Source: Achromobacter pestifer
GTDB lineage: Bacteria; Pseudomonadota; Gammaproteobacteria; Burkholderiales; Burkholderiaceae_B
NCBI RefSeq assembly: GCF_013267355.1
Contig: NZ_CP053985.1
Coordinates: forward strand, 1,674,001-1,738,000
DNA: 64,000 nt
Direction of reading: 5' to 3'
The stretch's first letter is position 1, and every line of letters begins with the position of its first letter. The position numbers and the translations under genes are program-made. This document shows, piece after piece, positions 9,490 to 15,394 of this stretch. A model generated the notes under the pieces. It saw only the letters and a program-made list of their open reading frames with translations. It did not search any database and was not told the DNA's origin.

Positions 9490-10395
9490 CTACTTGCTGG
9501 AGTAAACCAGGCTGTCGCGGGTGGCGATCAGGCAGTCGATAAAACACTCGGCGGCCGGCGTGGGCGGCGATTCCTTCTTCGCCAGAATTGAGATGCGGGC
9601 AGAGGGAAGCTCATGCGCCAACGGCATCATGCGCATGTGCGACGGCAGAAGATCGTGCTCGAACAAGGGGCGCACGAAGATGCCCAGCGCATCGCTTTTT
9701 GCCATGATCGCCAGCGCAACGGCCACCGAATGACAGGCGATGGTGTCACGCGGCATGGACAGGCCGTGCGCGGCGAAGGCCATCCGCAACAGATTTGCGG
9801 GAGCTTCCGTGTTGCCGGGCACCAGCCAAGGCGCGTCGTGCAGTTCAGTCAGGCTGCGGGCCTTGCGCAGCGGATGGCCAAGACGCGCGCCGACCGCAAG
9901 CGGCAGCGTGAACAAAGGACGGTGCGCAAAACCGTCGCTGATCTCTCCGTCATACTCGGTTTGCACCAGAAAATCGTAGCGGCCCGACTCCAGTTGCTCG
10001 TGGCTGAAGGGCGGCGCCACTTCATTGAACGAAACCGCCACGCGCGGCATGCGTGCGCGGAAAGCGACCAGCGCTTCCGGCACGACGACCAGCGCCGCCG
10101 AACTCACAGCCAGGTTCAATGTGCCGCCTTCGCCGTCGCGCATCTGTCCGATTTCCTCGCGCGCCCGGCGGGTCTCCTGCAGAATGACGATGGCCCGCTT
10201 GTACAACGCTTCGCCGTAGGTAGTCAGTTCCACGCCCTTGACGCTGCGGCGCACCAGATCGACGCCCACGCTCTGCTCAAGTTCGCGCAAGCTGCGTGTG
10301 GCCGCAGGCTGCGTCACGGCGAGCGCACGCGCCGCGGCCCGGATGCTGCCATGCTCGGCGATCAGCGCAAAGGCGCGCAATTGACGTAGGTTCAT
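9490..10395 (-). CDS. LysR-family transcriptional regulator
   Basis: This is a 301-residue LysR-type protein. The N-terminal winged helix covers residues 1-60 (MNLRQLRAFALIAEHGSIRAA, then AVTQPAATRSLRELEQSVGV), and the rest is a periplasmic-binding-protein-like effector domain starting at about 90. The effector is unknown. It is divergent from the MFS relic and the MFS/DUF2817 operon, which are its likely targets because LysR genes usually face what they control. The intervening 370 bases carry repeated promoter-like elements. Confidence 0.9.
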   Translation of the reverse strand: MNLRQLRAFALIAEHGSIRAAARALAVTQPAATRSLRELEQSVGVDLVRRSVKGVELTTYGEALYKRAIVILQETRRAREEIGQMRDGEGGTLNLAVSSAALVVVPEALVAFRARMPRVAVSFNEVAPPFSHEQLESGRYDFLVQTEYDGEISDGFAHRPLFTLPLAVGARLGHPLRKARSLTELHDAPWLVPGNTEAPANLLRMAFAAHGLSMPRDTIACHSVAVALAIMAKSDALGIFVRPLFEHDLLPSHMRMMPLAHELPSARISILAKKESPPTPAAECFIDCLIATRDSLVYSSK

Positions 10396-10657: not shown

Positions 10658-10694
10658 ATTCTGTCTTTTTCTTATTTCAAGGCATCCTTATAGT
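10658..10694 (+). promoter_or_regulatory. shared promoter element, copy A
   Basis: ATTCTGTCTTTTTC, then 17 bases, then TATAGT. The same arrangement and the same 17-base spacing occur before the MFS operon (11401) and the chemoreceptor (17292). TATAGT fits a -10 hexamer. The T-rich block is at the -35 position but does not match TTGACA, suggesting activator dependence or another sigma factor. Confidence 0.6.
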
Positions 10695-10738
10695 CCCTTC
10701 GAAAAGGGAGGCCGGTGCCCGCAGCCACGGACCGGCAA

Positions 10739-10759
10739 CCCTCTCAACAGACACGAGGG
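10739..10759 (+). promoter_or_regulatory. leader hairpin covering the ribosome site, copy A
   Basis: CCCTC pairs with GAGGG across an 11-base loop. The right arm contains the Shine-Dalgarno sequence 5-6 bases before the ATG at 10766. The equivalent place in the MFS leader (11481-11502) can form a shorter version. It may modulate translation. Confidence 0.35.
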
Positions 10760-10765
10760 GAAACC

Positions 10766-11290
10766 ATGTCTATCGCCATCGCCGTGGCCGCGCCCAACGC
10801 GCTGCACACACCATCCATGCGCCATGACGCTGACGCTATGGCTGATGGGGCGGTCTATCTGCGCAAATGGCGCGAACCTCCGCCTGATGAAGTCATGAGC
10901 GGAAAAGTCATGGCCGAAACTCGCCTGGCCGTCCCTACCCCTCTTTCCGACGCGCAGCTCCATGCCATCAAGCAAATTCTGGCATGTCTGTCGGATATTG
11001 GCGCCTCCCCGTTGGACACCCTGACCGGTGAATACGAAGCACGCCCCTACCAGCTTATCGGTCCCAACGATTCCTCGCCGGAAACCGACGGCGTCTTCTA
11101 TTTGCTGATCACCCGTTGGCCCACCCCCCAGGCAGCCATCACCTGGCAAGCGTCAACGGCGTATAGAGCGCTGCAAGGCATCGGCGCCGTGACCTCCGAC
11201 ACCTTCATGGCCCTGCCTGAGACCCGGCCGCTCGATCATCTGCGCGACGACAAGTTGCAGCGGGAATCGACGCCAGATGGCCATAAATAG
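10766..11290 (+). CDS. chimeric ORF beginning with a truncated MFS copy
   Basis: The 174-residue frame starts with the same 19 residues as the MFS gene at 11509 apart from two changes, and shares its leader. At 10821-10850 the DNA then matches MFS positions 11788-11817, but in a different reading frame, so about 220 bases are missing. A short further match (GCGCAAATGG) occurs at 10861. From about 10895 on, the sequence is unrelated to the transporter and I do not recognise it; it has its own possible start at 10895. Either the tail is a real small gene with a captured leader, or the whole is a decayed paralogue. Confidence 0.5.
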   Translation: MSIAIAVAAPNALHTPSMRHDADAMADGAVYLRKWREPPPDEVMSGKVMAETRLAVPTPLSDAQLHAIKQILACLSDIGASPLDTLTGEYEARPYQLIGPNDSSPETDGVFYLLITRWPTPQAAITWQASTAYRALQGIGAVTSDTFMALPETRPLDHLRDDKLQRESTPDGHK

Positions 11291-11508: not shown

Positions 11509-12855
11509 ATGTCTATCACCATCGCAGCGGCCGCGCCCAACGCGCTGCACACACCATCCATGCGCCGGCGCGTCATCGCCGGCACCACCATCGGCAACGC
11601 ACTCGAATTCTTCGACTTCACCGTTTTCACTTTCCTGATGCTGGTGCTCGGGCCTCTGTTTTTCCCGGCGGCCTCGGGCTACGGCCAATTGCTGTTGACC
11701 ACCGCCACCTTCGGCGTGGGTTTCCTCATGCGCCCCGTGGGCGGCATGCTCATCGGCTCCTATGCCGACCGCCACGGCCGCCGCGCGGCCATGACACTGA
11801 CCCTGTGGCTGATGGGCCTGGGCTGCGCCTTGATCGCGGTGGCCCCCACCTATGCGCAAATGGGCATGGCCGGCCCGGTCATGATGGTGCTGGCCCGCCT
11901 GATCCAGGGCTTCGCCGCCGGCGGCGAAGTCGGCGCCTCGACCACCCTGCTGGTCGAACACGCTCCACGCGGCAAGCGCGCCTTCTATTCCAGCTGGCAA
12001 TTCGGCAGCCAATCGCTGGGCGTGATGCTTGGAGCCTTGGTCGTAACGCTGCTCACCATGGGGCTGAGCACGGCACAGATGCAGGCCTGGGGCTGGCGCG
12101 TGCCCTTCGTGATCGGCATCCTGACCGTGCCCGTGGGCGCCTACATCCGCCGCAACCTCGAAGAAACGCTGACCAGCCCGCCCGCGAACACCGGCGCGCC
12201 GCAGGCCGTGACCGCTCATCGCACCATCGCCCATCAGCCTTTGCGCCGCATCTTCTCGGAATACAAGCTCACCATACTCAAGGGCATCCTGCTGCTGATC
12301 GGCGGCATGGTCAGCACGCAGATCCTCAGCTTCTACATGCCGGCGTATGCCAACCGGGAACTGGGCTTGCCGGCAACTTCGACGCTGTCGGCCAGTGTCG
12401 TGTTCGGCGCAGTTGGCTTCCTTATCGCTCCTTTCGTCGGCATGCTGGCCGACCGCTACGGCCGCAAACGCGTGATCTTCTGGTCGCGCCTGGCAACCCT
12501 GATCGTCCTGCTGCCTTGCTTCCAGTGGCTCATGGCCGCTCCCAGCACCGAACGGCTGATGCTGCTCGTCGCCCTGTTCGCGCTCCTGGTGGCACTGCAG
12601 TCGGCGCCGGCATTCACAATGCTGCCCGAACTCTTCCCCAAGGCCGTGCGCACGACCGGCATGTCGGTGGTGTATGGATTGGGTATCTCCGTGTTCGGCG
12701 GCTTTGCGCAATTCTTCGTGACCTGGCTGCTGCACGTGACCGGCAACTCCATGGCCCCGGCGTGGTTCCTGATGGTGGCCATCGCGCTTTCAACGGTGGT
12801 GCTGTTCTGGATCGACGACCGCACGCATGACGACATCGACGGCCAGGAGGCTTGA
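11509..12855 (+). CDS. MFS transporter, metabolite:H+ symporter type
   Basis: The 448-residue protein has about 12 hydrophobic segments and resembles the MHS (citrate/alpha-ketoglutarate/proline symporter) branch: GTTIGNALEFFDFTVFTF in the first helix, the ADRHGRRAAM loop after helix 2-3 and a second ADRYGRKRVIF loop after helix 8, both MFS signatures. It imports a small organic acid or zwitterion using protons. AAGGGG precedes the ATG. The stop codon abuts the start of the first DUF2817 gene, so transporter and hydrolase are co-translated, implying that the imported compound is the DUF2817 substrate. Confidence 0.92.
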   Translation: MSITIAAAAPNALHTPSMRRRVIAGTTIGNALEFFDFTVFTFLMLVLGPLFFPAASGYGQLLLTTATFGVGFLMRPVGGMLIGSYADRHGRRAAMTLTLWLMGLGCALIAVAPTYAQMGMAGPVMMVLARLIQGFAAGGEVGASTTLLVEHAPRGKRAFYSSWQFGSQSLGVMLGALVVTLLTMGLSTAQMQAWGWRVPFVIGILTVPVGAYIRRNLEETLTSPPANTGAPQAVTAHRTIAHQPLRRIFSEYKLTILKGILLLIGGMVSTQILSFYMPAYANRELGLPATSTLSASVVFGAVGFLIAPFVGMLADRYGRKRVIFWSRLATLIVLLPCFQWLMAAPSTERLMLLVALFALLVALQSAPAFTMLPELFPKAVRTTGMSVVYGLGISVFGGFAQFFVTWLLHVTGNSMAPAWFLMVAIALSTVVLFWIDDRTHDDIDGQEA

Positions 12856-13947
12856 ATGCAGCACGGTTCCAGTTACTTTTCCCGCAGCTACGAAGAAGCG
12901 CGCCATCGTTTCGTGCTGGCAGCCAAACCGCTCGCCACGCAGTTTCAATCCTATGTCATTGAACCCGCCGGCCGCGCGGGCGAAGCCCTGGCGACCGATG
13001 TCGCGCTGATCGGGCCGGCGGATGCGGAACGGCTGTTGATCATGACCTCCGCCACCCATGGCGTTGAGGGTTTCTGCGGCTCGGGCTGTCAATTGGCCCT
13101 GTTGGACGATGCCCCCATGCTGGAACGCGCCCGCAGGGCCGGCGTGGCCTTGCTGCTCGTGCACGCAATCAACCCTTACGGGTTTTCCTGGCTGGCGCGC
13201 ACGAACGAAGACAATGTCGACCTGAACCGCAATGACCAGTCCTTCGACGGACGTCCCCTGCCGCAGAACCCCGGATACGCCGGGGTCCATGATCTGCTGC
13301 TGCCCGCGGAATGGCCGCCCACGGCCTCGAACGCCGCGCGCATCGATGCCTATGTCGCCGAACACGGCCGGGCGGCCTTTGCGCAAGTCGTGACCCGCGG
13401 ACAGTACACACACGCCGATGGCCTGTTCTATGGCGGCACCCACCTCACGGCGTCGCTGCTGAATCTGCGGCATATCCTGCAGCAGCACGGCAGCCGCAGC
13501 AAGCATATCGGCTGGATCGATGTGCACACAGGCTTGGGGCCGCGCGGGCACGGCGAAAAAATATACGCGGGCCGCCGCGACGCCGCCGCGGTCGCGCGCG
13601 CGCGACTATGGTGGGGTAGCGATATCGCGGTTCCCTACGAAGGCAGCTCCGCATCCGCGGACATTACCGGCCAGTTGGCGGGATTGATCTACCAAACGAG
13701 CCCGGACGCCCAACACACGCTGATGGCGCTGGAGTTCGGCACCCTGCCCTTTGAAGCCATGATCGAAGCGCTGCGCGGCCGCAACTGGCTGCTTGCGCAT
13801 CCCGAGGCGGATGATGCCAAGCGCGACGCAATTCTGAACGCCACCCTGGATGCGTTCTATTGCGACGCCTCCGATTGGCACGGCATGATCTTGGGCCAGA
13901 GCCGGGTCGCCGTGTTGCAAGCATTGGCCGGTTTACAGGAGGCGTGA
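12856..13947 (+). CDS. DUF2817 protein (M14 carboxypeptidase-like), complete active site
   Basis: This 363-residue protein belongs to the DUF2817 family, related to M14 zinc carboxypeptidases and aspartoacylases. The zinc ligands His68 and Glu71 lie in THGVEGFCGSG and His224 in WIDVHTGLGPRG. NVDLNRN at 120-126 is the substrate carboxylate-binding Arg motif, and Glu293 in LEFGT is the expected catalytic base. No signal peptide is present, so it acts in the cytoplasm. It probably hydrolyses an amide bond in whatever the MFS protein imports. It overlaps the next gene by one base. All expected residues are present, unlike its neighbour. Confidence 0.88.
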   Translation: MQHGSSYFSRSYEEARHRFVLAAKPLATQFQSYVIEPAGRAGEALATDVALIGPADAERLLIMTSATHGVEGFCGSGCQLALLDDAPMLERARRAGVALLLVHAINPYGFSWLARTNEDNVDLNRNDQSFDGRPLPQNPGYAGVHDLLLPAEWPPTASNAARIDAYVAEHGRAAFAQVVTRGQYTHADGLFYGGTHLTASLLNLRHILQQHGSRSKHIGWIDVHTGLGPRGHGEKIYAGRRDAAAVARARLWWGSDIAVPYEGSSASADITGQLAGLIYQTSPDAQHTLMALEFGTLPFEAMIEALRGRNWLLAHPEADDAKRDAILNATLDAFYCDASDWHGMILGQSRVAVLQALAGLQEA

Positions 13948-15038
13948 TGCGAACCAGCGCCAGCTACTTCTCCCACAGCTACGCCCAGGCGCGCGAGCGC
14001 TTTGCGCAGGCGGCCAGGCCGCTCGCCGATTCATTCCACTCCTACGGCATCGACCATACGGGAAGCGAAGGCGAAGCGCTGGCCACCGATGTCGCTTACA
14101 TCGGCGATCCAGACGCCGATCGCGTCCTCATCATGACCTCTGCCGTGCTGGGTGTGGAAGGATTCTGCGGCTCGGGGTGTCAGCTGGCGCTGCTCGACGA
14201 TACCGTCATGCTGGCCCGTGCGCGCGAAGCCCGCGTGGCCTTGCTGCTGGTGCACGCGGTCAACCCATATGGTTATTCGTGGATCGCCCGCACCGATGAA
14301 TGCAACATAGACCTGAACCGCAACGGCCTGCCGTTCGACGGGCGGCCGTTGCCCATGAACCCGGACTACGCGCGGATACATGACCTGCTGCTGCCCGAGG
14401 AATGGCCTCCCACGCCTTCCAACCAGCAACTGATCGCCCAGTACATCGCCGAACACGGCCAATCCACCTTCGCGCAGGCAGTCTCGCGCGGCCAGTACAC
14501 ACATGCCGACGGCCTGTTCTACGGCGGCGACCGTCCGGCGGCATCGCTGCAGAACCTGCGCCGCATTCTGCACGAGCATGTGCGTACGCGCACCCATGTC
14601 GGCTGGATCGACGTGCATACCGGCTGGGGGCCGCGCGGCCATGGCGAAAAGCTCTATGCCGGCCGCCGCGACGATGCCGAAGTCGCTCGCGCGCGCCAGT
14701 GGTGGGGTAGCGATGTCACGGTTCCCTACCAGGGAAATTCGGTATCGGTCGATGTCTCCGGTCAGCTCGCCGATCTGATTTACCAGGCGTGCCCATTGTC
14801 CTTGCCGACCTCGATGGCGATCGTCTTCGGCGCCGTGCGTTTCGACGCCATGGTGCATGCCTTATGCGGCCGGAACTGGCTGCATGCGCATCCCGAGGCG
14901 CCCGCGGAATTGCGGCGCAGCATCCTGCAGACCACACTGGACGCGTTCTATTGCAACGAGTCGAATTGGCACGGCATGGTGCTCGGGCAAACCCGGGTGG
15001 CAGTGCTGCAAGCACTGCGCGGCTTACAGGCAGCTTGA
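13947..15038 (+). CDS. DUF2817 protein, zinc and catalytic residues lost
   Basis: This is a second DUF2817 protein of exactly the same length (363) and very similar sequence, following the first with a one-base overlap (TGATG). The frame is intact and GGAGG precedes the ATG at 13947. Residue 68 is Leu (codon CTG at 14148) where copy 1 has the zinc-binding His, and residue 293 is Val (codon GTC at 14823) where copy 1 has the catalytic Glu. The Arg motif NIDLNRN and the third ligand in DVHTGWGPRG remain. It is probably inactive as a hydrolase and may bind or regulate: a pseudoenzyme partner of copy 1. Confidence 0.88.
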   Translation: MRTSASYFSHSYAQARERFAQAARPLADSFHSYGIDHTGSEGEALATDVAYIGDPDADRVLIMTSAVLGVEGFCGSGCQLALLDDTVMLARAREARVALLLVHAVNPYGYSWIARTDECNIDLNRNGLPFDGRPLPMNPDYARIHDLLLPEEWPPTPSNQQLIAQYIAEHGQSTFAQAVSRGQYTHADGLFYGGDRPAASLQNLRRILHEHVRTRTHVGWIDVHTGWGPRGHGEKLYAGRRDDAEVARARQWWGSDVTVPYQGNSVSVDVSGQLADLIYQACPLSLPTSMAIVFGAVRFDAMVHALCGRNWLHAHPEAPAELRRSILQTTLDAFYCNESNWHGMVLGQTRVAVLQALRGLQAA

Positions 15039-15127: not shown

Positions 15128-15394
15128 ATGGAACGGTCGGGCTTTACGGAAGAACAGATCAGGCACGCGCTGAAGCAGGCAACGCTGGGCTCGCCGATAT
15201 CTGACATCTGCATGCGCATGGGCGTAAGCGAAGCAACCTTCCATTCCTGGAAAGTGCATTACGACGGGCTGGCGTCCTACGAACTGAAGTTACTGAACAG
15301 GCTCGAGAACGAGTGCAACCGTCTCGAGCGCCTGATCGCCATCCTGGCGCTGAATAAAGTGATCTTGCAGGACACGCTTGGGGCCAAGGAATAA
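15128..15394 (+). CDS. orphan IS3-type OrfA (HTH_Tnp_1)
   Basis: The 88-residue protein matches the OrfA of IS3-group elements over its whole length: FTEEQIRHALKQA start, a helix-turn-helix around DICMRMGVSEATFHSWK (about 28-44) and a leucine-zipper-like LLNRLENECNRLERLIAILAL tail. The ATG at 15128 has GGAGG upstream. No OrfB, inverted repeats or target duplication were found around it: a DUF2817 gene ends 89 bases before and a GGDEF gene starts 71 bases after. It may be a leftover or a domesticated DNA-binding protein. Confidence 0.75.
   Translation: MERSGFTEEQIRHALKQATLGSPISDICMRMGVSEATFHSWKVHYDGLASYELKLLNRLENECNRLERLIAILALNKVILQDTLGAKE

Follow-up and report, generated by a model that had tools for sequence, protein, structure and literature searches.

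A tandem pair of DUF2817 genes in Achromobacter whose second copy is a predicted pseudoenzyme

In a 64,000-nucleotide stretch of Achromobacter pestifer DNA (contig NZ_CP053985.1, positions 1,674,001 to 1,738,000; hereafter the window), two adjacent genes of the + strand, here called copy 1 and copy 2, encode DUF2817 proteins of 363 amino acids each. Copy 2 arose by duplication, has lost His68 and Glu293, two residues of the predicted active site that copy 1 conserves, and has kept the predicted substrate clamp; it evolves under strong purifying selection and is strictly linked to copy 1. We believe, with slightly more confidence than doubt, that copy 2 is a functional but catalytically dead pseudoenzyme that serves copy 1 as a non-catalytic, ligand-binding partner and tunes or stabilises it.

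Residues lost and kept by the second copy

As the original prediction had it, the two copies are adjacent and of equal length (Table 1); they align without gaps, and 245 of the 363 residues (67.5%) are identical. The PF10994 (DUF2817) profile scored 383 bits with copy 1 and 366.8 bits with copy 2 (cut-off 23) and matched over positions 1-340 of its 341 in both, which places both proteins in this family, while a search of the NCBIfam profiles returned nothing for either copy at E ≤ 0.001. We know of no established function for DUF2817, and in the open-licence literature the domain was found mentioned only in work on another subject; the NCBI name for its members in Achromobacter is 'M14 family metallopeptidase'. 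Four DUF2817 genes are present in the genome of the window, that is, the tandem pair plus two distant paralogues whose active-site motifs are intact. The predicted structures of both copies (from alignments of 30 and 32 of 122 proteins) have the fold of the M14 metallocarboxypeptidases and match solved M14 enzymes over the whole chain.

Copy 1 carries the residues expected of an active M14 enzyme, namely the HxxE...H zinc ligands, the arginine clamp and the catalytic glutamate, whereas copy 2 departs from this pattern with Leu68 and Val293 in all six genomes that bear the pair. The codons, read directly, agree with what had been called originally: position 68 is cat (13057-13059) in copy 1 and ctg in copy 2, and position 293 is gag (13732-13734) and gtc, respectively. 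By motif order, His68 would correspond to the first zinc ligand and Glu293 to the catalytic base of M14 enzymes, the equivalences having been drawn from this order, from comparison of the copy-1 profile with solved structures and from Table 2 of PMC11266112. Retained in copy 2 are Glu71, His224 and the predicted substrate clamp Arg115/Asn124/Arg125.

We compared these positions with 143 of the 145 near-full-length DUF2817 matches obtained outside Achromobacter in surveys of the family, the order and the phylum, leaving out G315 and G641 and, outside the 145, weak partial matches and the fragments of G227 and G131. Residues H68, E71, R115, R125 and H224 were conserved in 143/143 of these proteins, and N124, E293 and T296 in 142/143 each, the exceptions at positions 293 and 296 being one E293V and one T296A. 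Twenty-four positions were conserved in 141 or more of the 143; of these, copy 2 was altered at three (H68L, E293V and T296A) and copy 1 at none. A leave-one-out count over 145 rows gave copy 2 the highest number of changes, three, followed by 3 rows with two, 15 with one and 126 with none, and copy 2 was the only row missing two of the seven core residues; under a stricter cut (the 16 positions invariant in all 143), H68L was the only copy 2 change left. The exception at position 293 was a gene of G637 (L184, G637:C88:19763-21142) that reads VVVVFGT and has E293V with H68 retained; it is the sole DUF2817 gene in the match list of its genome, which belongs to another family of the order, and either the catalytic glutamate was lost there independently or the fragmented assembly may be in error. 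The two genes set aside, G315:C1:709620-710651 and G641:C6:9985-10989, have one in-frame TAG apiece. Among the 120 database proteins listed (the best 120 of 1496 matches) and the two copies of the window, Leu68 together with Val293 was confined to copy 2 and three close relatives, P0003-P0005; position 68 was missing from two fragments in that set, and the distant relative P0057, akin to the second copy of a separate duplication described below, has Tyr in place of His224.

The original prediction had spoken of a loss of exactly the active-site residues. That description suits H68L and E293V among the 24 near-invariant positions, but it went slightly too far, since T296A goes with them, other active-site residues are kept and twelve changes are fixed in 9/9 copy-2 sequences (L51Y, T67V, H68L, V121I, Q128L, L227W, I236L, A258T, T271S, E293V, R307C and S349T). 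A change was counted as fixed where at least 32 of the 33 single or first copies of the genus agreed, together with the commonest copy 1 residue; neither this comparison nor the selection analysis included the G031 fragments or the 30-40% paralogues within Achromobacter. Copy 1 has specific changes of its own, namely A13E, D117N, A212G, E245A, Q262E and P287H. Because 31 of the 184 positions invariant in the single or first copies of the genus differ in one or more copy-2 sequences, against 17 for copy 1, the targeting of catalytic sites becomes clear only beyond the depth of the genus.

The twelve fixed changes describe a remodelled protein and, with E71, H224 and the clamp persisting, could mean that the active site of copy 2 was rebuilt for a different catalysis, such as that of a lyase or esterase working without metal or with an alternative one. 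We regard this as improbable, because both lost core sites are occupied by non-polar residues (Leu and Val) and, judging from the list of changes with spatial closeness left aside, no new fixed metal ligand accompanies E71 and H224.

Origin, linkage and selection

Matches to copy 2 were found in 40 of 43 Achromobacter genomes, six with the tandem pair, three with two full modules of a major facilitator superfamily (MFS) transporter gene plus a DUF2817 gene, 30 with one full-length close copy and one (G031) with fragments. Copy 2 itself was present in 6/43 genomes, always directly behind copy 1 and never apart from it, and all six shared the same substitutions, the start/stop overlap, the AGGAGG and an intact copy 2 frame. 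V67-L68 and V293 characterise the copy 2 clade in these six genomes and in three further database sequences; no orthologue among them has the residues restored, which supports the pseudoenzyme reading first put forward. In a tree of 71 proteins (which keeps the 40% paralogue of G013), the copy-2 sequences of the six genomes and P0003-P0005 formed one clade (100/100), and so did the copy-1 sequences and P0054 (100/100). The simplest reading of these data would be one tandem duplication within Achromobacter, after which copy 2 lost the catalytic residues along its stem, ahead of the divergence of the six species.

A separate duplication was seen in G014, G028 and G030 (L040, L041 and L042), where the MFS-DUF2817 module is present twice and all copies retain the active site. 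Outside the genus, the family survey (268 genomes, 84 with a match) returned no directly adjacent DUF2817 pair, the order survey (399 genomes, 54 with a match) only the pair of the window, and the phylum survey (398 genomes, 86 with a match) one additional adjacent pair, in G669, with the residues intact in both copies; the surveys overlap in some genomes, and the order and phylum sets were sampled from larger groups. The G669 pair (L078 5391-8266) belongs to another family of the phylum and is unrelated; its genes lie 2 bases apart, with complete active sites and MFS genes nearby. We rejected a rule by which tandem DUF2817 pairs contain a dead copy, since the copies of G669 and of G014, G028 and G030 keep the residues.

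The start codon of copy 2 is the ATG at 13947, which shares a base with the TGA of copy 1 and stands 4 bases downstream of the AGGAGG. The TTG at 13860 given in the list of open reading frames (ORFs) was discarded as its start, being merely the first start codon following a stop. The junction motif, CAGGAGGCNTGATG, is identical in 6/6 pair-bearing genomes; the open frame, ribosome site, arginine motif (R115/R125) and His224 originally ascribed to copy 2 are thus all in place. The overlap and the strong ribosome site probably couple the translation of both copies.

This layout also bears on the idea that copy 2 is a stand-alone ligand binder, which senses, buffers or carries the imported compound without contacting copy 1, the linkage of the two genes reflecting only a shared pathway. 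Such a role would agree with the predicted clamp, with the 21 of 24 near-invariant positions that are kept, with the strong constraint on copy 2 and with a same-pathway linkage to the MFS gene that is general in the genus. We nevertheless think it rather unlikely: the overlap with AGGAGG in 6/6 genomes suits a partner better, and so does the observation that none of the 43 genomes has a copy 2 away from copy 1.

The ratio of nonsynonymous to synonymous rates (dN/dS, or omega), estimated pairwise by NG86 over 15 pairs for each copy, was 0.028-0.084 in copy 2 and 0.057-0.095 in copy 1. We also fitted a branch codon model (custom script, GY-type, F3x4, fixed tree) to 24 genes (six copy 1, six copy 2 and 12 of the 33 single or first copies) over 360 of the 363 codons. 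Omega was 0.079 in the background, 0.056 in copy 1 and 0.044 in copy 2, and it reached 0.39 on the copy-1 stem and 0.21 on the copy-2 stem, the two stem values being rough because the stems are long; the log-likelihood (lnL) was -11993.1, against -12023.9 for a single omega. Copy 2 had an omega below the background (p = 1.1e-5) and neutrality was rejected (2ΔlnL 877); copy 1 also differed from the background (p = 0.008), and no difference appeared between the within-clade omegas of the two copies (p = 0.16).

Copy 2 therefore combines lost catalytic residues with purifying selection on the remainder, as is required of a pseudoenzyme, and, because these residues were lost yet the protein was kept nearly unchanged, it is suggested to do a job of its own. 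The loss of two residues that 143/143 and 142/143 other members conserve might instead be taken for the mark of a duplicate in decay whose frame is still free of stops. With such a clade omega, a frame intact in 6/6 genomes and low NG86 ratios in all 15 pairs, this is hardly credible, and neutral decay, which the original prediction had itself named as fatal to it, is refuted at the level of the genus.

Both stems had an omega above the background (p = 1.1e-5 and 1.2e-3): both copies changed fast right after the duplication and slowed later. Fast stems followed by strong constraint fit a mutual adaptation of the copies. They agree less with a dominant-negative inhibitor, that is, a copy 2 that poisons or tunes copy 1 by replacing subunits in a homo-oligomer: the identity between the copies and their shared predicted fold would let copy 2 fit into such an oligomer, and coupled synthesis would fix the ratio of the copies, but both diverged on their stems, unlike a simple mimic, and we give this mechanism a slim chance.

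The surrounding genes

Upstream of the pair lie an MFS gene and a divergent regulator gene (Table 1). The association with an MFS transporter that had been pointed out at first extends well beyond the window: at the 39 Achromobacter loci with a close copy, an upstream MFS gene was present in 38 and the LysR gene in 37. The exceptions were G024, which has neither, and G033, without LysR because its contig stretch starts with the MFS gene. Only the last 26 codons remain of the MFS copy adjoining copy 1 in G004, where another MFS copy is intact.

Table 1. Features of the tandem DUF2817 locus, with positions in the window
Feature	Position	Strand	Description
Copy 1	12856..13947	+	DUF2817 (PF10994), M14-like fold; H68, E71, R115, N124, R125, H224 and E293 all present; predicted active metallohydrolase
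Copy 2	13947..15038	+	Predicted DUF2817 pseudoenzyme; H68 to L (codon 14148-14150), E293 to V (codon 14823-14825), T296 to A; E71, R115, N124, R125 and H224 retained
Copy 1/copy 2 junction	13937..13949	+	AGGAGG 13937-13942; TGA 13945-13947; ATG 13947-13949; motif CAGGAGGCNTGATG; predicted translational coupling
MFS/copy 1 junction	12845..12858	+	AGGAGG 12845-12850; TGA 12853-12855, then ATG 12856 directly
MFS transporter, metabolite/H+ symporter type	11509..12855	+	TIGR00883 351.8 bits, below cut-off 443; next TcuC
LysR-type regulator, divergent	9490..10395	-	Upstream of MFS gene; accompanies the module in most loci (see text)

Between these two genes, positions 10659-10849 hold the remnant of a second, upstream MFS copy, in which 10659-10823 resembles the MFS upstream region plus first codons (86%) and 10821-10849 an interior piece (90%); such upstream, or first, MFS copies persist in G005, G041 and G004. 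In the window this remnant runs on in frame into an ORF at about 10850-11290, for which neither Pfam nor NCBIfam gave a match at E ≤ 0.001. Counterparts of the ORF, 66-77% identical, are flanked by the two MFS copies in G005 and G041 and follow the first MFS copy in G004; none was seen in G042 or G001. On the other side of the pair, an 88-amino-acid ORF at 15128-15394 is similar to the beginning of an IS3 transposase (NF033516; 30.4 bits against a cut-off of 160). The five other tandem genomes have it in the same position after copy 2, 82-93% conserved; it is possibly a retained regulator. A neighbouring GGDEF gene was found at E ≤ 1e-150 in the six tandem species only, and a LuxR-type neighbour at E ≤ 1e-50 in 9/43 Achromobacter genomes.

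A proposed role and its relation to known systems

We infer for copy 2 a loss of catalysis, binding of a ligand, a complex with copy 1 and a regulatory effect, arranged as follows. A single MFS-linked DUF2817 gene would have been duplicated in tandem inside Achromobacter, and copy 1 would have remained an M14-type zinc hydrolase, probably cytosolic, whose substrate would be a small compound, acyl- or peptide-like, imported by the MFS symporter. Copy 2 would have given up the first zinc ligand and the catalytic glutamate and kept the substrate-carboxylate clamp, Glu71 and His224; since the clamp is intact, the dead copy may still bind a carboxylate ligand. The overlapping genes and the strong ribosome site would link the synthesis of both proteins, and copy 2 would then assemble with copy 1, hold substrate or product without turnover and stabilise or tune the active subunit. 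More tentatively, and with a likelihood well short of even, the active site of copy 2, stripped of metal and base but with its substrate clamp left, could have become a pure ligand sensor in which bound substrate or product switches the catalytic subunit allosterically, so that tandem duplication would have produced a ligand-gated two-subunit hydrolase.

Several results weigh against a catalytically dead partner of copy 1. Concerning its history, the copy-1 and copy-2 groups came out as sisters with modest support (83/84), an omega of 1 is rejected for the copy-2 stem (p = 1.4e-4) but not for the copy-1 stem (p = 0.13), and the stems measure 0.61 and 1.20 in neutral units and are partly saturated; a raised stem omega would be equally expected from two independent changes of function. 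A tandem layout alone does not imply an active/dead pair, because G669 keeps both active sites, and the loss of E293 is by itself not unique, because G637 also lost it with H68 kept. As for the fold, Foldseek TM-scores ranged from 0.29 to 0.59 among the matches listed, and the copy-1 profile did not match solved M14 proteins significantly (E 0.2 for Rep34, 4oko_A; 0.64 for carboxypeptidase N; 1.8 for MpaA); a search of solved structures with the single copy-1 sequence likewise returned nothing at E ≤ 0.001. In copy 1 the predicted local distance difference test (pLDDT) dropped below 50 at residues 69-71 and 110-115, and in copy 2 it did so at 125-127 and 262-271; the active-site geometry of the models is unreadable because these stretches include several active-site residues.

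A catalytically dead partner of copy 1 would nonetheless have relatives in other systems. In the open-licence literature, mostly at the level of titles and beginnings of abstracts, we found no bacterial M14 pseudoenzyme and no report of this DUF2817 pair, nor any open-licence work on Achromobacter that mentions an 'M14 family metallopeptidase'. The M14 pseudopeptidases listed in PMC11266112 are AEBP1/ACLP, CPXM1, CPXM2, CPD domain III and Ecm14, all five eukaryotic, and according to its Table 2 all five lost the clamp residue R145 and keep H69. Copy 2 resembles them in its predicted M14 fold, its replaced active-site residues and a presumably non-catalytic function. Unlike those listed there, it is bacterial and encoded directly behind an active paralogue, and it shows the reverse pattern, the clamp being kept and the equivalents of H69 and E270 lost. 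Catalysis lost with the clamp kept, the opposite of what that list describes, predicts a binding-only site. In Sonic hedgehog (Shh; M15) and Ebp1 (M24), pseudo-active sites are reused for binding, although Shh may in fact be active (PMC11266112); the former active site of copy 2 may similarly have been reused to hold a partner or ligand, whereas Shh and Ebp1 are eukaryotic members of other peptidase families with no adjacent active paralogue described in that source.

The pair is a natural case in which to study how a dead copy may come to be needed: in six species a live gene and a dead one, equal in length, lie side by side with an apparent single origin, and congeners that have a single copy, or two fully active ones, are built-in controls. 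It also opens a way to study a domain whose function has yet to be established. Its closest parallel may be the M16B peptidases, which are built from active and inactive homologous subunits; the inactive subunit of MPP is essential, and prokaryotic homologues derive from a two-gene operon (PMC11266112), with SPH2681/SPH2682, TTHA1264/TTHA1265 and AlbF/AlbE as bacterial heterodimers (PMC12731061). Like peptidases of the M16B kind, the DUF2817 pair is a two-gene array of homologues, one active and one inactive as judged from their residues. Unlike M16B, a clam-shell of two halves of about 50 kDa, it belongs to another peptidase family and fold (its motif is HxxE...H in a DUF2817, M14-like fold rather than the HxxEH of the M16 fold). 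By analogy, the pair may work like an active/inactive peptidase pair; if the ligand-gated hydrolase were true, it would be a metabolic counterpart of MPP alpha/beta on another fold, one whose dead subunit still used its binding site.
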